The notes beneath the pieces were generated by a model. The model was not told where the DNA came from and searched no databases. It saw nothing but the letters and a program-made list of their open reading frames with translations. Shown piece after piece: positions 18,550 to 27,509 of a stretch of DNA of 64,000 nucleotides. Within the stretch, counting starts at the first letter, position 1, and every line of letters starts with the position of its first letter. Origin of the DNA: Haloplanus aerogenes (GTDB lineage: Archaea; Halobacteriota; Halobacteria; Halobacteriales; Haloferacaceae); assembly GCF_003856835.1 (NCBI RefSeq), contig NZ_CP034145.1, positions 1,116,001 through 1,180,000 of the forward strand, read 5' to 3'. Made by a program: the position numbers and the translations under genes.

Positions 18550-18817
18550 GGCGACCGGGTCGACCACACCAACACGACAAAAGGGGATAGTTATCAGGAG
18601 CTTTCCCCGGAGACGGTCGAGCCTGAACCTGCGGCTAACCCGAAATTATGTAGTTCACCCAACCCAAAAATTCTCGGGTTTCAGTCCCTCTCGCTAGTTA
18701 ATCATTGGTTAACGCGCAGGTATGTGCGCGCACGACGACCGGACTCACTGCCGACGCAGGTAATCGAACCCTTACACCGCTTAGTGCGTCGTTATGTGTG
18801 AGAATTGGTGATTAGCT
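18550..18817. other. Intergenic regulatory stretch between the DUF7344 gene and the SipW-type cluster
   Basis: No gene is visible. It holds AACCCGA (18637-18643) and its exact complement TCGGGTT (18674-18680), a GTTAA-n7-TTAAC dyad (18697-18713) and a weak TATA-like TTATGTG at 18792-18798, 25 or so bases before an ATG at 18818. These are plausible operator and promoter pieces for the divergent genes. Confidence 0.4.
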
Positions 18818-18922
18818 ATGGGGGTGGGTGTTATGCATAGAGGTGTCGGAACACCCACGCTGGTCGCGACGACGGTTCGATTCCGTCGGTGGGCATCCCC
18901 TCACAGGGGAAACACACCATGA
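18818..18922 (+). CDS. Possible leaderless mini-ORF overlapping the first SipW-type gene
   Basis: A 34-codon frame starts at ATG 18818 and ends in TGA at 18920-18922, overlapping the ATG at 18919 as ATGA. It would run straight through T-arm-like element A. The peptide (MGVGVMHRGVG...) has no recognisable features. Support comes only from position and overlap. Confidence 0.25.
   Translation: MGVGVMHRGVGTPTLVATTVRFRRWASPHRGNTP
18824..18909 (+). promoter_or_regulatory. Structured leader element A with tRNA T-arm mimic
   Basis: A 5-bp stem GACGG/CCGTC (18871-18875, 18883-18887) closes a 7-base loop TTCGATT, which is a canonical tRNA T-loop. It is followed directly by GGTGGG (18888-18893), then CAT and a CCCC-n5-GGGG hairpin (18897-18909). 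The CCCAC at 18854-18858 can pair with GTGGG at 18889-18893, giving an acceptor/T-arm-like minihelix. The same CCCAC is also the end of AACACCCAC (18850-18858), a perfect 9-base complement of GTGGGTGTT (18824-18832). These two pairings exclude each other. The start codon follows 9 bases after the last hairpin. Confidence 0.6.
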
Positions 18923-20028
18923 CGGACGAACGATTCGACATATCACGGCGGAAGGCACTAGCTGCACTCGGCACCATCGGCGTAGCGTCGGCGGGTGCTG
19001 GTCTGGGCACGAGCGCGTACTTCTCCGACCAGGAGACGTTCGAGAACAACTCGCTCGTGGCCGGCACGCTCGACATGGGCGTCGGGTACACGGCGCACTA
19101 CTCGGACTGGAGCCCGGACGAGGACGGTGGTGACACGGAGACGACCGACGACGACGTCGACGTGATCATGTACGACGGCGGTCCCAACGAAACCGGGAGT
19201 GCCGGTGAGCTGCCCACGGTTAACGGTACGCAGTACACGGGCCTGCCCGCGAATGACGCGTGGCTGATCGCCGTCGACGACCCCGACCAGTTCCTCACGA
19301 ACACCCAGACCGGCGTCTATCCGAACGCCGGCGATACCGACGGCGATGGCGTCGACGATCAGGGCCCGGTCGAATGTGTCGACAACGGTGACGGTGCCCT
19401 CGTCGCGAACGCACAGGCCGACGACGCCACGAAGCCAGTGATCGAACTGGACGACGTGAAGCCGGGCGACTTCGGCGAGGTCACGTTCGACTTCGTGCTG
19501 TGTGACAACCCCGGCTACGTCTGGCTGAACGGCAGCGTCATCAGCGAGAGCGAGAACGGGATCACCGAACCGGAGGCCGACGACCCCGACGAAGAGGAGA
19601 CCGAAGAGCGACCGGCGAGCGAGGACAGCGAGAGCGACGTGGTCGAACTCCTCGACGTCGTGCAGGCTGCCGTCTGGGTCGACAACGGCAACAACTACCA
19701 AGACGGCGACGAGGGCGGCGTGATGCTCAACACGGGATCGCTCCGCGAGGTTCTGGGAATGGTCAGCGGGGGTTCGGCCGGATACGAACTCAACGGCAAC
19801 ATGAACGCGGAAGCCGGTGGCGGGACCGGCGACCAGGGGTGTTTCGAGGCGAACACCATGCACTCGCTCGCGTTCGCGTGGTGGGTTCCCATCGACCACG
19901 GCAACGAGATTCAGTCCGACTCCGCGACGTTCGACCTCGGCTTCTACACCGAGCAGTGCCGCCACAACGACGGCAGCGGCATGAACAACGAGGGCCTCGA
20001 AGACGAAGTCGACGACGACGCGGAATAA
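18919..20028 (+). CDS. SipW/TasA-type secreted surface protein
   Basis: The 369-residue acidic protein starts with a basic segment and hydrophobic core (SRRKALAALGTIGVASAGAG) followed by TSAYFSDQETFENNSLVAG, the pattern of SipW-processed TasA/camelysin precursors. The mature part contains DVKPGDFGEVTF, CDNPGYVWLNG, an acidic linker, WWVPIDHGNEIQSDSATFDLGFYTEQC and an acidic tail. In bacteria and in Pyrobaculum such proteins form extracellular fibres by donor-strand exchange; that role here is inferred. The matching signal peptidase is encoded at 23308. The downstream paralog at 20157 shares both ends of the protein, including a 43-base exact match. Start ATG 18919 is chosen because the signal peptide begins there. 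Confidence 0.85.
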   Translation: MTDERFDISRRKALAALGTIGVASAGAGLGTSAYFSDQETFENNSLVAGTLDMGVGYTAHYSDWSPDEDGGDTETTDDDVDVIMYDGGPNETGSAGELPTVNGTQYTGLPANDAWLIAVDDPDQFLTNTQTGVYPNAGDTDGDGVDDQGPVECVDNGDGALVANAQADDATKPVIELDDVKPGDFGEVTFDFVLCDNPGYVWLNGSVISESENGITEPEADDPDEEETEERPASEDSESDVVELLDVVQAAVWVDNGNNYQDGDEGGVMLNTGSLREVLGMVSGGSAGYELNGNMNAEAGGGTGDQGCFEANTMHSLAFAWWVPIDHGNEIQSDSATFDLGFYTEQCRHNDGSGMNNEGLEDEVDDDAE

Positions 20029-20041
20029 CGGACCCCTCACA

Positions 20042-20115
20042 CCCACTTGGAGACAGCGTCTCCCCCCGACGCTGACGGCGGTTCGATTCCGCCGGTGGGC
20101 ATCCCCGGGACGGGG
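20042..20115 (+). promoter_or_regulatory. Structured leader element B with tRNA T-arm mimic
   Basis: GGCGG/CCGCC (20077-20081, 20089-20093) closes the T-loop-like TTCGATT, followed by GGTGGGCAT and CCCC-n5-GGGG (20103-20115), the same order as element A. Compared with A the second stem pair is changed on both sides (A-T to G-C), which preserves pairing. CCCAC (20042-20046) can pair with GTGGG (20095-20099). Between them CAGCGTC (20054-20060) and GACGCTG (20068-20074) form a 7-bp stem with a 7-base loop, reminiscent of an anticodon arm, while GGAGAC-AGC-GTCTCC (20049-20063) is a competing hairpin. The element fills most of the gap before the gene at 20157. Confidence 0.6.
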
Positions 20116-20156
20116 AGTGAGGCCGCCTCAATGCGGTCGAACGAGAACACGAAACC

Positions 20157-22118
20157 ATGTCAAACAACGACTTCGAACTCTCACGGCGGAAAGCGCTCGC
20201 CGCTCTCGGTAGCATCGGCGTGGCGTCGGCTGGGGCCGGACTCGGAACGTCCGCGTTCTTCAGCGATCAGGAAACGTTCCAGAACAACCGACTCGTTGCG
20301 GGCGAACTCGACCTCAAGTTGGACTGGGAGGAGCACTACTCCAACTGGTCCGCGGACGAGAACGACGACCGGGAAGAGAACGACGGCGGTGACGGCGAAG
20401 GCGACGACGGCGTCGGCGAATTCGAAGTGACGATGGAGCGCCCGGATAATCCGGGGATGTACCGTCCGTTCCCGCCCGGGACGGAGGGCTTCGACAACGA
20501 TCAGGAGCCGCTTCTCTGGGTGCCCGAAGCGTACGTCGACGACTTCATGGACAACACGTCCATCGAAGCGTATCCCGATTCGAACAACGACGGCATCGCG
20601 GAGTTCCCGATCGAGGAAATGAACGATCGGGCTCCCTGTGACTACCTCGCCGACGTGGGCGCCAACGACGAGGGACTCGATCCGGACAGCGATCCGCTGG
20701 GCCGGACGGACAACGACGACACGCGTCTCGACGATGGCTCGCCGGCACCGATGATCCATCTGCAGGACGTGAAGCCGGGCGACTTCGGCGAGGTCACGTT
20801 CAGTACGCACCTCTGTGACAACCCCGGCTACCTCTGGATGAACATGCCGGGTGGTCTGGATGCGAGCGAGAACGGGTTCACCGAGCCTGAGCTCGACGAC
20901 CCCGACGAAGACGGACCCGGTGGTGAGGTCGAACTCGTCGACCAGATTCAGACTGCCCTCTGGTACGACGACTGTGACAACCTCTTCACCTGCGACGAAC
21001 TGATCGACCTGATGATCGTCGCAGACACGTCAAACAGCATCAACGGGGATCTGGACGAGGATACTGGCGGTCCCGGTGAGGACGACGAAAGTGTTCCCTC
21101 GGAGGCGGAGCTCCTCCGGGACGCGGGGAACGAGTTCATCACTGCACTCGAAAATGCGACCAGTGGTGATCAGGTCAGGGCCGGCTTCCTGACGTTCAAC
21201 GGCGCAGGCGATCCCGACGACGTTGACCCGTCCGGAACCGGGGTCTTCGGTCGTCCAGCTCTGCGCGCCGGTATGGGACCGCTCTCGCAGTTCGATCCGG
21301 ACAACACTGGTGGCCCCGACCTCGGCGAGTTCCTCCCCAACCAGGGGAACGGCAACACGCCGCTCCCGTACGCACTGGATCTGGCGCAACAGGTGCTCGA
21401 TGACCAGGGTCGATCCGGTGCGAAAAAAGTGATCCTGGTTGTCACGGACGGTCTTCCAGACTACGTCGGCGGTGGCAACACCGTGCCGTACACCGTCGAG
21501 GAGAACGAGGGAGGCCCGCTCACGCCCACTGGGAATACCTACACCTCCGCGGTCTACTCCGACGGCATTGCCGACGGTTCCTCCTCCCAGGCCGAACAGG
21601 ACGAGAGCGCGGCTGTCGCCACGGACATCCAGAACGACGGCACCATCATCCGCGTCGCCGGCATCGGTCTCACGCCGTCTGCGGACAACTTCCTGCGCGC
21701 CGGCATCGCCGGCACCGACGGCGATCCGACTTCCGCCGAGAGTGGGTTCTTCTACGACCCCATCGACTTCGCGAGCCTCGTCGACCTCGCCGAGACGATT
21801 GCCGGAGACATCACCGCGGGCGTCAACGGCTGCGAGGAGATCATCTTCTCCGGCACGCTTGGCGAGCTGGAGACCGCACTCACCGCCAACGACGGCCGCG
21901 GCATCCCGCTCGACGGGGAGCTCCCGGCCGAACAAGGCGGCGGGTCCGGTCGAAACTGTTTCGCTGCGAGCGCCACGCACTGCTTTGGCTTCTCGTGGTG
22001 GCTTCCGGTCGACCACGCGAACGAACTCCAATCTGACGGCGTTTCGTTCGACATCGGCTTCTACACCGAGCAGTGCCGCCACAACGACGGCAGCGGGATG
22101 AACAGCGAAGAGGTCTAA
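20157..22118 (+). CDS. SipW/TasA-type secreted protein with inserted von Willebrand A domain
   Basis: The 653-residue acidic protein has the same SipW-type N-terminus as its upstream neighbour (SRRKALAALGSIGVASAGAG, then TSAFFSDQETFQNN), the same DVKPGDFGEVTF and CDNPGYLWMN strands, and the same C-terminal WWLPVDHANELQSD and FYTEQCRHNDGSG. Between them, at about residues 285-560, lies a vWA domain with a full metal-ion site: DTSNS (Asp290, Ser292, Ser294), Thr401 in GNTPLPYAL and Asp431 in VTDGLPDY. vWA domains bind ligands through a metal ion, so this looks like an adhesive, possibly tip, member of the fibre set. It is co-directional with the genes on both sides. Confidence 0.87.
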   Translation: MSNNDFELSRRKALAALGSIGVASAGAGLGTSAFFSDQETFQNNRLVAGELDLKLDWEEHYSNWSADENDDREENDGGDGEGDDGVGEFEVTMERPDNPGMYRPFPPGTEGFDNDQEPLLWVPEAYVDDFMDNTSIEAYPDSNNDGIAEFPIEEMNDRAPCDYLADVGANDEGLDPDSDPLGRTDNDDTRLDDGSPAPMIHLQDVKPGDFGEVTFSTHLCDNPGYLWMNMPGGLDASENGFTEPELDDPDEDGPGGEVELVDQIQTALWYDDCDNLFTCDELIDLMIVADTSNSINGDLDEDTGGPGEDDESVPSEAELLRDAGNEFITALENATSGDQVRAGFLTFNGAGDPDDVDPSGTGVFGRPALRAGMGPLSQFDPDNTGGPDLGEFLPNQGNGNTPLPYALDLAQQVLDDQGRSGAKKVILVVTDGLPDYVGGGNTVPYTVEENEGGPLTPTGNTYTSAVYSDGIADGSSSQAEQDESAAVATDIQNDGTIIRVAGIGLTPSADNFLRAGIAGTDGDPTSAESGFFYDPIDFASLVDLAETIAGDITAGVNGCEEIIFSGTLGELETALTANDGRGIPLDGELPAEQGGGSGRNCFAASATHCFGFSWWLPVDHANELQSDGVSFDIGFYTEQCRHNDGSGMNSEEV

Positions 22119-22119
22119 C

Positions 22120-22193
22120 TGGGGACCACCTCGCTCCCCATCCCTTAGCCCGCGCAGGTCGCCAGTGCGACGGTTCGAATCCGTCGGTGGGTC
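22120..22193 (+). promoter_or_regulatory. Structured leader element C with tRNA T-arm mimic
   Basis: GACGG/CCGTC (22169-22173, 22181-22185) closes TTCGAAT, again a legal T-loop, followed by GGTGGGTC. CCACC (22126-22130) can pair with GGTGG (22186-22190); it sits in the loop of TGGGGA/TCCCCA (22120-22125, 22135-22140), so the two pairings would compete or form a pseudoknot. GCGC and GTGC (22152-22155, 22165-22168) can form a small arm just before the T-arm. The ATG at 22200 follows only 6 bases after the element. A TATA-like reading of TTCGAAT is possible here but does not fit the spacing of elements A and B. Confidence 0.55.
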
Positions 22194-22199
22194 TCTCAG

Positions 22200-23003
22200 A
22201 TGCCCCTGAACTCGCTCACGCGGCGACGGATCCTCGCCGCAGTCGGGAGTGCCGGTGCTCTCTATCTCGGTGTGGATCGAGCCGGGGCTACACTCGGACT
22301 CGATCCAATCGATATGAATCAGCGGACGGTGAACGGGACGTACGCGCAGACGAATGGATTCACCGACGCGCCGCCGCGGATCGCACTCTCCTGGCGCGAA
22401 ATCGTGAACGGCCAGGTGCAGGAAGATACGGGACTCACGACGGATACGGAGGGTGAGACGGGCGACGTGGGGCTGATCGTCGACGAGGCGGTGGTGCCCG
22501 GCGATAGCGGTTCGGTGACGATGCGGGTCGAACTCCTCGAACGGGACACCCCGACCGAGAACGCACAGCTCTATCTACTCTTCCGGCTCTCCGACACGTC
22601 CGAAAACGGAGTGAACGAACCCGAGTTTGATGCCGGCGACGATCCGAGTTCGTCCGAAGGTGAACTCGACGACGAGACGGAGATTTCCGTCTGGATCGAC
22701 GAAGGCATCCTCACCGGCAACGGTGAACTCGAACCGCTGCCGATCATCGGCGACGAGACGGTCGCGGAAGGGAGTCTTCGCCAGGTGTCTCGTGATCCCG
22801 CAGCGGGTGGGATCGGTGGCAACGCAGCCGAGAATACGGGTGGCTACCAGATCACCATCGACGGCGACACGTGTCTCTCCCCTGGCGACGAGGTGTACGT
22901 CTCGTTCCAGTGGCGGATTCCGGAGAGCGTCGGCAACATCATCCAAGGGGATTCGGCAACGTTTCAGGTCGTCTTCGATCCGCGGCCGTGCCCGGAGGGA
23001 TAA
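22200..23003 (+). CDS. Secreted protein of the SipW-type cluster
   Basis: The 267-residue protein has a twin-arginine-like or SipW-type N-terminus (LTRRRILAAVGSAGALYLGV) and an all-beta-looking acidic mature part with VPGDSGSVTMRVEL, LYLLFRLSDTSENGVNEPE and YVSFQWRIPESVGNIIQGDS. The last segment matches the WW[VL]P..H.NE.QSD strand of the two upstream paralogs, so it belongs to the same fold though more diverged and without the FYTEQC ending. It is probably a minor or terminating subunit. The ATG at 22200 directly follows leader element C. Confidence 0.75.
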   Translation: MPLNSLTRRRILAAVGSAGALYLGVDRAGATLGLDPIDMNQRTVNGTYAQTNGFTDAPPRIALSWREIVNGQVQEDTGLTTDTEGETGDVGLIVDEAVVPGDSGSVTMRVELLERDTPTENAQLYLLFRLSDTSENGVNEPEFDAGDDPSSSEGELDDETEISVWIDEGILTGNGELEPLPIIGDETVAEGSLRQVSRDPAAGGIGGNAAENTGGYQITIDGDTCLSPGDEVYVSFQWRIPESVGNIIQGDSATFQVVFDPRPCPEG

Positions 23004-23213: not shown

Positions 23214-23311
23214 ATGGACGAAACGGGGGCGAACGACGAGTGGTCGAGTCACATCGGGGGACGACTGTGATGATACCCGGACAGCGACGGATCGGGGGGT
23301 GTCGCGCGTGA
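23214..23311 (+). CDS. Two possible coupled leader peptides before sipW
   Basis: An 18-codon frame (MDETGANDEWSSHIGGRL) runs from 23214 to TGA at 23268-23270 and shares the A of its stop with the ATG of a 13-codon frame (MIPGQRRIGGCRA, 23270-23311), which overlaps the sipW GTG as GTGA. The first ATG lies about 30 bases after a TATA element, so it would be read as a leaderless message. The peptides have no known relatives that I recognise. Confidence 0.3.
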
Positions 23312-24450
23312 ACGCGCAGTCGACGACCGACAGGAACACGCTTCGCTTGGCGAAGAACGCGCTGGTAGTGCTCGTGTTGCTCGCCGTCGTCGCTCCCTTC
23401 GTCGTCTACGCGGTTCCGAGCGTCGTCGGGGCGGACCACGGACTCGTCGTTCTCTCCGGCAGTATGGAGCCGAAGATGAGCCCGGGTGATGCGGTCATCG
23501 TCCGGGAGGTGCCGGCCTCGGAGATCGAGCAGGGCGACATCATTACGTTCCAGCGGTCCGGGAGCGACACGCCGACGACTCACCGAGTGGTCGAGAAACA
23601 GCAGGCTGAGGACGGTGTCGCCTACGTCACCAAAGGCGACGCCAACGAGGAACGTGATCGGGGGACCGTTCCGCACGACCGGGTGGTGGGTGAAGTCATC
23701 TTCGTGATTCCGTTCATCGGTCACGTGATCCAGTTCGCCAACACGCAGGTCGGCTTCCTCGCGCTCGTGCTCACGCCGATGGTTCTGTTCGTCCTCTCGG
23801 AGCTCTGGGAGATGGCGAAGGAGATTCGCGAACCCAAATCGTCCAGCGCGACGGCGACCGACGGGCCGTCGGTTACGGCAGCGACTCGGACGACCACCGA
23901 CGCCAGTGTCGGCACCACTGGCACCGGCGGCGGCGAGAGTGACGGATTCACGCTCACGCGGTCGAGCCTCCAACTGCTCTTGCTCCTGTTCGGACTGTAC
24001 ATGCCGTACAGCGGGTACGTCGCGTACACGATGCAGGAAGCAGTGCCGATAGCCGTCGCGACCGCGACGACGATCGCGTTCCTGTTCTGTCTCGTGATCT
24101 ATCTAGCCAGTCGTGGGGCAGAAAGCGACTCGGCCGGTTCGGCGACCCGTTCGATCGAGGGCGTCGTCCGACAGGGCGAACTCCCAGCGCGGATCGGTGA
24201 GCGTACCACGATCCCGCTGGACTCGGTCGAGTCGCTGGTTCAGATGGCTCTCGACCGCGACGACTGGGTCATCTACGACGACGAGCAGGACACGTACTAC
24301 ATGGCTCGGGACGACGCGCTGTATCTGCACCGTGCGGCGCCCGAAACCGACGGGGGGACGGTCGCCGACGGCGACACGACGGAGACGGTCGAACCGGATC
24401 GGCGGTCGACCGACGACAGTCCGTCCACGACGGGTGGTGGTGGAACGTGA
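23308..24450 (+). CDS. sipW: SipW-type signal peptidase I (archaeal/ER type) with extra C-terminal domain
   Basis: The 380-residue protein has an N-terminal membrane anchor, then the catalytic domain with Ser52 in LSGSMEPKMSPGD, His92 in TTHRVVE and aspartates in TKGDANEERD (Asp111, Asp117); His instead of Lys marks the ER/SipW class. Further helices at about 140-165 and 215-270 are followed by a cytoplasmic domain with DSVESLVQMALDRDDWVIYDD, a segment common to several haloarchaeal S26 proteins. It should cleave the precursors at 18919, 20157 and probably 22200, 24447 and 25512. GTG 23308 is preferred (GTG 23299 is possible). Its stop overlaps the next start by 4 bases. Confidence 0.88.
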   Translation: MNAQSTTDRNTLRLAKNALVVLVLLAVVAPFVVYAVPSVVGADHGLVVLSGSMEPKMSPGDAVIVREVPASEIEQGDIITFQRSGSDTPTTHRVVEKQQAEDGVAYVTKGDANEERDRGTVPHDRVVGEVIFVIPFIGHVIQFANTQVGFLALVLTPMVLFVLSELWEMAKEIREPKSSSATATDGPSVTAATRTTTDASVGTTGTGGGESDGFTLTRSSLQLLLLLFGLYMPYSGYVAYTMQEAVPIAVATATTIAFLFCLVIYLASRGAESDSAGSATRSIEGVVRQGELPARIGERTTIPLDSVESLVQMALDRDDWVIYDDEQDTYYMARDDALYLHRAAPETDGGTVADGDTTETVEPDRRSTDDSPSTTGGGGT

Positions 24451-25511
24451 CCGACGGCCGCGACCTGTCGCGCCGGAAGCTCCTCTGGGCGATGGCTACC
24501 GCCGGAGCTGCGGCGTCGGCCGGGAGCGGCACCGCGGCGATGATGCAGGACTCCGAGAACTTCGACTCAGAAATGATTGCAGGCATAGTCGACCTCGACA
24601 CCGAGCCATCGTGGGGGACCGATTCGAGTTTCGGCACGGCGTCGGAAGGCGATAGTGGGACGGAGACGGTCACGCTCTCGGTTTCGGACAACCCGTCCTA
24701 TCTCTGGTTTCGGACGAAATGCGCTCAGTGTGAGGCGGTCGAAGAGGCGCTGTTCGTTCGCTTCGGTATCGATACCGATGGCGACGGCACCGTCGATCGG
24801 TGGCTCTCCAGCGACTACCTGTCGCTTCGGGAGGCACGCGAGCAGTTCGGCGAGGGGATCAATCTCGGCGAACTCGATCCCACGGATACGTGGGAACTCG
24901 TCGTCGAGTGGGAAGTCCGCGACGGTATTCGAGACGACACTAACGTCGACTTCGACTTCGACTTCTACGCTACCCAGTCACGCCACGTCATGAACACGGA
25001 CTCCGTTGCCCCCGACTGGCAGTGCCCCGGTAGCTGTGGTGGTACGGGTGGCGATCCGGACGAGGAATCCGGGATCAGCTGGGTCGCGTTCTGTAGTTCG
25101 GAAACGTTCTCCAAACGCGATATCGGCTTCGAGCGGAGCGACGACGAACGGAAGCTGGGGATTCGAAGCCTGCCTGCTTCGATCGACACCATCGTCATCA
25201 AGTACGGCACCAACTTGGACGTGTTCGACGTCAGTTCCCGGGGCGGTCAGTTTTCGCTCACGGTCGGCGACGGCACCACGCACACCCAAGAAGGCGACTC
25301 GTACGCCGGCACCGACCGGAGCAATTCGCTCCCGTGCCCCGACAGTTACGGGTGCAAGTACGACTTCCCGGGCCGGAATGACCCGGGTGGCTGGGAGTGT
25401 AAAGACTCCCGAGACGACACGAACATGCAAGACAGAGACTCCGATCCCGGTAGCTGGTCCTTTCACTCGCTCACGGAAACCGGTGGCAGCTTGATAGGGG
25501 GTGAGCGCTGA
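24447..25511 (+). CDS. Secreted protein with SipW-type signal, downstream of sipW
   Basis: The 354-residue protein starts with GTG overlapping the sipW stop (GTGA). Its N-terminus LSRRKLLWAMATAGAAASAG followed by MMQDSENFDSEMIAGIVDLD matches the consensus of SipW substrates. The mature part has SVSDNPSYLWFRTKCAQCE, an FDFDFYATQSRHV segment equivalent to the FYTEQCRHN strand of the major proteins, then a Cys-rich C-terminal extension (about 195-354) with about eight cysteines in acidic context. The extension is unknown to me. Coupling to sipW suggests co-production with the peptidase. Confidence 0.78.
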   Translation: MTDGRDLSRRKLLWAMATAGAAASAGSGTAAMMQDSENFDSEMIAGIVDLDTEPSWGTDSSFGTASEGDSGTETVTLSVSDNPSYLWFRTKCAQCEAVEEALFVRFGIDTDGDGTVDRWLSSDYLSLREAREQFGEGINLGELDPTDTWELVVEWEVRDGIRDDTNVDFDFDFYATQSRHVMNTDSVAPDWQCPGSCGGTGGDPDEESGISWVAFCSSETFSKRDIGFERSDDERKLGIRSLPASIDTIVIKYGTNLDVFDVSSRGGQFSLTVGDGTTHTQEGDSYAGTDRSNSLPCPDSYGCKYDFPGRNDPGGWECKDSRDDTNMQDRDSDPGSWSFHSLTETGGSLIGGER

Positions 25512-27509
25512 ATGTCGCTCCGAGACCTCGATATCACGTGGAAGACCGTCGCCATACTCCTCCTCGCGTTCGTAGTTATCGCTTCGGCGTCCGGCGGTGC
25601 GACGTACACGGTGCTGTCCGACGCGGAATCTACGTCTGGGATTTTGACCGTCGAGGCGCAGTTCTCGAACGGCATGTACCAGCTCAAGCCGATTCCCTGT
25701 CAGCAGGCCGAATCGGCACGTGCCACGGGTGTGACTCCCGATCCGGACGACCAGAAGAAACTCAAGCAGTTCGACGTGGCCGGCAACGGAGGTTGTGCGA
25801 AGATTTCGTTCTGGCTCGCCCCCTTCTGGTTCGGCGATACGTCGCCGTCGAAAGCGACTATCGGTCACCAAGACGAGAGCACCGGGAAGTGGTTGTTCTT
25901 GGAGACCACCGTGGGCAGGCACACCGATCGGACGGTTAGACTCGACGCCGTCACGACCGGGTTCAGTCCGTTCGCGGTGTTCGTGCCTAACGAGACCCAA
26001 AGCCAACCCGTGACGAACGTCGATCCGACGAACGGGACGGCGACGGCATCCACCGATAACGGGACGGCGACGCCGACGCCGACATCGACATCGACGCCGA
26101 CGCCGACATCGACGCCGACGCCGACTCCCACCGAATCGGGTGACCAGTCCACCAGCTCCGGTTCGGCCGGCGCCGGGGCAGTCGATAGTTCGGACGACTC
26201 GTCGGAGTCGGACGAGAGCGAGACGGACTCCACGTTCGACAGCGACTCCGATTCCAGTGACTCCGACGACGGGACGGCAGACGACGAATCGACGTCGTCC
26301 GAGGACGGTTCGGACCCCGACTCCGACTCGTCGGAGGAGTCGACGACGGACAACTCAACGACGGACAACTCGCCGGAGGAATCGACGCCGGACAACTCGC
26401 CGGAGGAGTCGCCGGACAACTCGACGGATGAGTCGCCGGACAACTCGACGGATGAGTCGCCGGAGGAGTCGCCGGACAACTCGCCGGAGGAGTCGCCGGA
26501 GGAGTCGCCGGACAACTCGCCGGAGGAGTCGCCGGAGGAGTCGCCGGACAACTCGCCGGAGGAGTCGCCGGAGGAGTCGCCGGACAACTCGACGGACGAG
26601 TCGCCGGAGGAGTCGCCGGATGATTCCACGACGGATGAGTCGCCGGATGATTCCACGACGGATGAGTCGCCGGATGATTCCACGACGGATGAGTCGCCGG
26701 ATGATTCCACGACGGATGAGTCGCCGGACGAGTCGCCGGACGACTCGGAGGGAGATGATTCGACGCCGGACGACTCGGAGGGAGATGATTCGACGCCGGA
26801 CGACTCGGAGGGAGATGATTCGACGCCGGACGACTCGCCGGATGATTCGCCGGACGACTCGGAGGGAGATGAGTCGCCGGAGGAGTCGCCGGATGATTCC
26901 ACGACGGATGAGTCGCCGGACGAGTCGCCGGACGACTCGGAGGGAGATGATTCGACGCCGGACGACTCGCCGGATGAGTCGCCGGACGACTCGGAGGGAG
27001 ATGATTCGACGCCGGACGACTCGCCGGATGAGTCGCCGGACGAGTCGCCGGACGACTCGGAGGGAGATGATTCGACGCCGGACGACTCGCCGGATGAGTC
27101 GCCGGACGACTCGGAGGGAGAGGAGTCGCCGGATGAGTCGCCGGACGACTCGGAGGGAGATGAGTCGCCGGACGACTCGGAGGGAGATGAGTCGCCGGAG
27201 GAGTCGCCGGATGATTCCACGACGGATGAGTCGCCGGAGGAGTCGCCGGATGATTCCACGACGGATGAGTCGCCGGACGACTCGGAGGGAGATGATTCGA
27301 CGCCGGACGACTCGGAGGGAGATGATTCGACGCCGGACGACTCGCCGGATGAGTCGCCGGACGAGTCGCCGGACGACTCGGAGGGAGATGATTCGACGCC
27401 GGACGACTCGCCGGACGAGTCGCCGGACGACAGTTCCTCCTCGGGCGGCGACACGGATTCGTCCAGCACCGACGATGGAGACGACTCCTCCGACGGCGGG
27501 TCACAATGA
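25512..27509 (+). CDS. Ser/Asp/Glu/Pro-repeat surface protein with SipW-type signal and PGF-pre-PGF-like segment
   Basis: The 665-residue protein begins one base after the upstream stop. Residues about 8-40 form a membrane or signal segment ending in GGATYTVLSDAESTSG, like a SipW substrate. Residues about 80-160 (ISFWLAPFWFG, TGFSPFAVFVP) resemble the PGF-pre-PGF domain found in archaeal surface proteins. From about 175 the chain is a Thr/Pro stretch and then over 400 residues built only from S, D, E, P, T, N and G. No archaeosortase PGF-CTERM tail is present; it ends DDSSDGGSQ. Such a chain would be extended and extremely acidic, fitting a stalk or wall-spanning spacer. Confidence 0.8.
   Translation: MSLRDLDITWKTVAILLLAFVVIASASGGATYTVLSDAESTSGILTVEAQFSNGMYQLKPIPCQQAESARATGVTPDPDDQKKLKQFDVAGNGGCAKISFWLAPFWFGDTSPSKATIGHQDESTGKWLFLETTVGRHTDRTVRLDAVTTGFSPFAVFVPNETQSQPVTNVDPTNGTATASTDNGTATPTPTSTSTPTPTSTPTPTPTESGDQSTSSGSAGAGAVDSSDDSSESDESETDSTFDSDSDSSDSDDGTADDESTSSEDGSDPDSDSSEESTTDNSTTDNSPEESTPDNSPEESPDNSTDESPDNSTDESPEESPDNSPEESPEESPDNSPEESPEESPDNSPEESPEESPDNSTDESPEESPDDSTTDESPDDSTTDESPDDSTTDESPDDSTTDESPDESPDDSEGDDSTPDDSEGDDSTPDDSEGDDSTPDDSPDDSPDDSEGDESPEESPDDSTTDESPDESPDDSEGDDSTPDDSPDESPDDSEGDDSTPDDSPDESPDESPDDSEGDDSTPDDSPDESPDDSEGEESPDESPDDSEGDESPDDSEGDESPEESPDDSTTDESPEESPDDSTTDESPDDSEGDDSTPDDSEGDDSTPDDSPDESPDESPDDSEGDDSTPDDSPDESPDDSSSSGGDTDSSSTDDGDDSSDGGSQ
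26380..27430 (+). repeat. Minisatellite encoding S/D/E/P repeats
   Basis: Tandem units interleave: a 36-base unit encoding EESPEESPDNSP (three copies, about 26464-26590), a 27-base unit encoding DDSTTDESP (four copies, about 26617-26730) and a 30-base unit encoding DDSEGDDSTP (three copies, about 26738-26830), followed by mixed blocks. Copies are nearly identical at DNA level, which points to recent slippage or unequal exchange. All six frames stay open across it. Confidence 0.9.

Follow-up and report, generated by a model that had tools for sequence, protein, structure and literature searches.

The DNA analysed here, referred to as the window, is a stretch of 64,000 nucleotides from Haloplanus aerogenes (contig NZ_CP034145.1, positions 1,116,001 to 1,180,000), in which a cluster of forward-strand genes encodes exported or exported-looking proteins, the first three of them each preceded by a short element resembling parts of a transfer RNA (tRNA). 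Gene 1 (18919-20028, 369 amino acids) and gene 2 (20157-22118, 653 amino acids) encode SipW-type signal-peptide proteins, both matching TIGR04088 above the cut-off (7.7e-8 for gene 1, which also matches Peptidase_M73; gene 2 has in addition a weak VWA-like similarity below the cut-off). Gene 3 (22200-23003) encodes an exported-looking RRR protein (MPLNSLTRRRILAAVGS...) with no NCBIfam or Pfam match. An earlier interpretation made from the letters alone (the sequence-only reading) had counted all three genes as SipW-type, which holds for genes 1 and 2 and not for gene 3.

The three elements share one layout: an 11-base-pair helix composed of an acceptor stem and a T-arm, a T-loop, a GG dinucleotide, and a variable side arm in place of the anticodon arm. 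In element 1, the acceptor 5' strand CCCAC (18854-18858) is followed after 3 nucleotides by GG (18862-18863), a mimic of the D-loop G18-G19, then by the T-arm (18870-18888), a 6-base-pair stem CGACGG/CCGTCG around the loop TTCGATT, and by the acceptor 3' strand GTGGG (18889-18893), of which CCCAC is the covarying partner across the element family. Immediately downstream lies the hairpin TCCCC-TCACA-GGGGA(A) (18896-18911). Element 2 has the same acceptor 5' strand CCCAC (20042-20046), then TT and GG (20049-20050), a side arm forming the hairpin CAGCGUC/GACGCUG (20051-20075), the T-arm (20076-20094), the 3' strand GTGGG (20095-20099), and a downstream hairpin TCCCC-GGGAC-GGGGAG (20102-20117). 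Element 3 starts with CCCGC (22149-22153), followed by GCA, GG (22157-22158), the T-arm (22168-22186) and GTGGG (22187-22191). The T-arms were correctly placed by the sequence-only reading at 18871-18893, 20077-20099 and 22169-22191, and the upstream partner CCCAC is right for elements 1 and 2; the partner of element 3 is CCCGC, with one G-U pair, rather than the CCACC proposed. The stem layout also needed amendment: the first G of GGTGGG lies outside the acceptor pairing and faces the base before the T-arm, usually as a C-G pair, giving a helix of 5 + 6 base pairs. As the same reading had held, the sites contain no complete tRNA; neither ARAGORN nor the Rfam tRNA model found one in the window, and no Rfam family scored above its gathering threshold there, a relaxed threshold giving only weak, unrelated matches.

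A structured family across haloarchaea

We searched with the pattern GRCGGTTCGANTCCGYCGGTGGG, allowing up to 3 mismatches and using the same pattern read backwards as control. The 3.5-megabase genome contains 12 matches against 0 for the backward pattern, and all 12 genomes of the genus contain between 2 and 11, with a single control match across the whole set. A covariance model was then built from a seed of 52 elements, none of them linked to 5S ribosomal RNA (rRNA); its 28 positions comprise three nucleotides, the T-arm, GGTGGG and two further nucleotides, and leave out the 5' acceptor strand. In the genome of the window it gives scores of 32-46 bits to 11 elements that lie in front of exported-protein genes, while noise stays at or below 22.9 bits. 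Matches occur in 90 of 119 genomes and 26 of 28 genera of the family (Haloferacaceae), and in 60 of 155 genomes of the order; in the phylum sample, matches outside the order are single and weak, and the seven that were checked proved to be intact tRNA-Gln genes. A scan of named genomes gave chiefly haloarchaeal matches (Halorubrum, Halobellus, Haloarchaeobius, Halobacterium and others), together with some bacterial sites, part of which have no explanation. The full collection amounts to 256 distinct copies; almost all come from haloarchaea, and the majority stand in front of SipW-type or DUF1102-type exported-protein genes. Two of the elements, L073:1459-1528 and L411:3814-3893, are called tRNAs by ARAGORN (one of undetermined identity, one as "tRNA-Arg tcg"), and since the program did so, automatic annotation may mistake such elements for tRNA genes, and public genomes may contain examples mis-annotated in this way.

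The pairing is maintained through sequence change. Among 91 distinct cores, whose 5' strands were picked independently of the 3' strands, 8 of the 11 pairs show changes on both sides, a value reached in 0 of 500 shuffles, and double-changed cells number 49 against 12.4 in the shuffles. The 5' acceptor strand plays no part in the covariance model and can be used to check the pairing independently: within 80 nucleotides upstream, 75% of 264 elements have an exact partner with GG 2-3 nucleotides after it, compared with 4.6% of shuffled and 0.4% of coding sequences. The 26 elements whose 3' strand differs from GTGGG have their own exact partner, with the same spacing and GG, in 14 cases against 1.5 expected, the variant pairs including CCGAC/GTCGG, CCCGC/GCGGG, CTCAC/GTGAG and CCCGG/CCGGG. 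The spacing from acceptor strand to GG is 2-3 nucleotides in the 222 scorable elements, and the sixth T-stem pair seen in the window, between the first G of GGTGGG and the base preceding the T-arm, recurs in most copies. T54, T55, C56 and A58 of the T-loop never vary among the seed elements, and the GG resembles the D-loop GG that contacts the T-loop in tRNA, a contact that these elements may also form. The middle region varies from 3 to 79 nucleotides, and the longer middles fold into hairpins much better than their shuffles do (mean z of -2.3, against -0.2 for coding controls). That the elements constitute a conserved, structured, tRNA-like RNA family is as good as certain, and the acceptor and T-arm mimicry claimed from the sequence alone is borne out by this covariation.

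The same architecture precedes 5S rRNA

Two further elements of the same genome lie 5' of its 5S rRNA genes, a connection that the sequence-only reading had overlooked. They have the same layout, with CCGAC/GTCGG as acceptor pair, and although the covariance model was built without any such member, it finds both at 28.7 bits, above all noise. The Rfam 5S rRNA match begins within 1 nucleotide of the predicted cut.

A haloarchaeal t-element upstream of 5S rRNA was reportedly described in Haloferax volcanii by Hoelzle et al. in 2008 and 2012. Both RNase P and tRNase Z act on the H. volcanii t-element, and cutting by the latter yields the 5' end of 5S rRNA; pairs of t-elements have moreover been used to release CRISPR RNAs (crRNAs) in vivo (PMC4326828, PMC4946936). 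The published H. volcanii primer ACCGATATTGGTATGGCAACC displays the layout of strand, three nucleotides and GG, and nearly the same sequence occurs in the pre-5S elements of a related genus. In six genomes of that genus (probably Haloferax or near it), those model matches that could be placed are pre-5S elements. A pattern search for the H. volcanii element itself gave no match, the probable cause being that the query was the primer extended with guessed bases.

The architecture of the elements in front of protein genes is identical to that of the pre-5S t-element: an acceptor strand, 2-3 nucleotides, GG, a short middle, a T-arm with TTCGANT, the acceptor 3' strand, two unpaired nucleotides and a T at position 74. 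By structure, they very likely belong to the same kind. The two groups differ in that one precedes 5S rRNA and the other protein genes, mostly with CCCAC/GTGGG rather than CCGAC/GTCGG, and in that the latter often have a long side arm and a hairpin at nucleotide 74; cleavage is established for the former and predicted for the latter.

Predicted cleavage and the downstream hairpin

By analogy with the pre-5S element, tRNase Z should cut after nucleotide 73 (tRNA numbering), that is, at 18895/18896, 20101/20102 and 22193/22194 for elements 1 to 3. The sequence around this point is consistent with such a cut. A T occupies position 74 in 229 of 251 elements, with positions 72 and 73 variable. In tRNAs, CCA blocks tRNase Z, and none of the 251 elements has CCA at 74-76. 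A hairpin starts within 0-4 nucleotides of nucleotide 74 in 84% of elements, against 27% of shuffles and 38% of downstream sequence, and among the 217 hairpin-bearing copies the outermost pair lies exactly at nucleotide 74 in 181 (G-U allowed). The hairpin of element 1 would in this manner come to stand at the new 5' end of the gene 1 messenger RNA (mRNA). Leaders from nucleotide 74 to the ATG mostly span 11-30 nucleotides (165/217), a range of 8-60 covering most, and 15 of the 217 are 10 nucleotides or shorter, as in gene 3 of the window, whose predicted processed leader is 6 nucleotides long. First genes without an element have other leaders, mostly with no such hairpin among those inspected.

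Downstream genes and position within clusters

Classified by our own text patterns on N-termini, the genes behind the 83 distinct elements that the model found by itself comprise 48 SipW-type genes, 14 DUF1102-like genes, 1 5S rRNA gene and 20 others, many of which encode further exported proteins from the same clusters, gene 3 of the window among them. The matches are therefore tied to SipW-type and similar genes and not scattered, in agreement with the association first proposed, and the range of targets is broader than SipW-type, extending to DUF1102-type and other exported proteins. Elements also stand before exported-looking proteins that are non-SipW by the text patterns in L099, L163, L107, L162, L186 and L338, and one such protein matches DUF1102 plus CARDB; these cases suggest a wider set of target genes. 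In L407, a 12.5-kilobase stretch of a related genome, six consecutive DUF1102-type or similar genes each have their own t-element.

The element is typical of intergenic spacers, and in Haloplanus it also heads single genes. In 21 hand-coded stretches, a biased choice since they were picked partly for having elements, 41 of the 46 following genes have one, compared with 2 of the 14 first genes, and the 6 genes overlapping or nearly touching their predecessor are all without an element. Among 44 genes picked regardless of elements, the contrast is 11 of 19 following against 8 of 25 first genes (p = 0.13), the first genes with an element coming mostly from the genome of the window. Given this unbiased contrast, and since first genes also carry the element, separation of cistrons is unproved as the sole role. 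The proposal that the elements separate messages thus stands for following genes in clusters, which are their main carriers outside Haloplanus, and falls short where they head first or lone genes, gene 1 included.

Interpretation and alternatives

We propose that the three sites are t-elements, minimal tRNA-like structures within the transcript that punctuate or trim mRNAs, and assign this reading a probability of about 0.7. The tRNA maturation enzymes would treat the elements as precursor tRNAs: tRNase Z would cut 3' of nucleotide 73, directly 5' of each exported-protein gene, and RNase P would probably cut 5' of the acceptor strand. An intergenic element would in this way separate neighbouring cistrons, and one heading a transcription unit would lead to trimming of the 5' end. 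The released mRNA would begin either with a hairpin, its first pair formed by the new 5' nucleotide, or with a leader of a few nucleotides, and a 5' hairpin could plausibly shield the message from decay that depends on the 5' end. Cleavage by tRNase Z and RNase P at the predicted sites is likely, given the homology to the pre-5S element and the phasing of the hairpin; such cutting, already offered by the sequence-only reading, is retained as the leading function. Several observations weigh against this interpretation. The helix has 11 base pairs compared with 12 in tRNA, yet the pre-5S elements are equally long; in isolation, element 1 pairs GGUG with a downstream CACC and not with CCCAC, and neither element 1 nor element 3 folds better than its shuffles; and some elements lack the exact partner strand or the hairpin. 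In addition, only about 19 of the 44 TIGR04088 genes picked regardless of elements carry one, and since about half are without it, the element is not required for this class of protein.

One could alternatively imagine a switch of translation, in which a G-rich ribosome-binding stretch is masked or made accessible by the tRNA-like fold together with the hairpin, GTGGG pairing either with CCCAC or with C-rich sequence downstream, and the fold itself or a bound tRNA-handling protein sets the state of the gene. The typical distance of 11-30 nucleotides to the start codon, the competing downstream fold of element 1 and the hairpin 3' arm GGGG(A), which is near a Shine-Dalgarno sequence, would all suit such control. 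A switch would not, however, need an acceptor and T-loop that obey the tRNA rules in detail, nor a hairpin whose start is in phase with the tRNase Z site; in some elements the start codon is just 1-10 nucleotides away, and several of these have no hairpin; and the same element precedes the non-coding 5S rRNA, so that we regard translation control as unlikely. Less probable still is that a tRNA-modifying or tRNA-binding protein recognizes the structure and stabilizes or localizes the mRNA with no cleavage. The T-loop and GG are the parts of a tRNA read by elbow-binding proteins, and the elements have both, but nothing specific points to such binding, and cutting is established for the pre-5S element, their nearest relative. 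Both possibilities had been raised from the sequence alone, and neither has gained positive evidence.

Two further explanations are refuted by the data. Attachment sites usually have as their core a T-arm joined to an acceptor 3' end, and the elements could be attachment-site copies or remnants of decayed tRNA genes. No tRNA of the genome, however, matches the pattern or the model above noise, the other matches preceding exported-protein or 5S genes; the compensatory changes reveal selection on the fold, and the elements recur before the same class of gene across many genera, which leaves this origin with a very small probability. Chance similarity in GC-rich leaders would fit the composition of the genome and the ordinary fold energies of elements 1 and 3; it is excluded by the excess of matches over the backward control in the genome itself and their presence in every genome of the genus, as well as by the rates of partner strand plus GG, and its probability is negligible.

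Returning to processing at t-elements, we lean towards the more specific view that a dedicated tRNA-like family punctuates the mRNAs of multi-gene exported-protein clusters, with the enzymes releasing messages whose 5' ends are closed by a hairpin. If true, this would be an archaeal counterpart of tRNA punctuation in mitochondria, devoted to one functional class of proteins. In mitochondria, too, RNase P and tRNase Z free mRNAs by cutting at the tRNAs or tRNA-like structures that lie between them, and a plant mitochondrial t-element is cut by PRORP (PMC4919922, PMC9181182). The compartment and enzymes differ, and the haloarchaeal elements are distinguished by their tie to one exported-protein class and by the phased hairpin. 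The tRNA-like structures of MALAT1 and MEN-beta (mascRNA and menRNA) differ in lying at the 3' end of animal non-coding RNAs, whereas the elements described here lie 5' of archaeal coding regions. For cleavage of operons by Escherichia coli RNase P, we are not aware of a tRNA-like element with a T-loop that recurs and covaries. The likeness there, as far as the work cited in PMC4919922 is summarized in that source, is that RNase P acts on polycistronic operon messages.

Literature searches directed at this question, mostly outside subscription journals, turned up no account of such elements in front of SipW-type or DUF1102 genes. In haloarchaea, a tRNA-like cleavage signal is so far known for a ribosomal RNA; the elements before exported-protein genes most likely mark sites at which the tRNA-trimming enzymes cut the mRNA. 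Processing by archaeal tRNase Z and RNase P would, if the proposal is true, extend beyond tRNA and 5S rRNA to messages in many haloarchaeal genera, and would offer a concrete mechanism by which operons of related exported proteins yield separate mRNAs with defined 5' ends. The question is directly testable in H. volcanii, for which the enzymes, published t-element assays and mapping of RNA ends are available.

Other features of the cluster

The upstream neighbour of gene 1 is divergent, and a promoter-like stretch, TTAGCTATGGGGGTGG (18815-18830), lies some 25-40 nucleotides 5' of element 1; its putative promoter role is suggested by comparison of first genes. First genes of SipW-type clusters (at 18813-18830 in the window, and in L405, L413, L417, L418 and L424) share a promoter-like GATTAGCTAT or GATTAGCTATG, or a similar sequence, followed by a G-rich run, the two together lying some 60-110 nucleotides 5' of the start codon, and this could possibly reflect a shared regulator or type of promoter. 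Downstream of gene 3, a signal peptidase I of the archaeal/SipW kind (23299-24450; TIGR02228, 2.2e-33) is followed, with a 4-nucleotide overlap, by gene 4 (24447-25511), which encodes a further exported-looking protein and is without a t-element. Past the cluster, at 25512-27509, the window encodes a protein with a long repeat region rich in D, E, S and P (SPDDS/SPEES-like).

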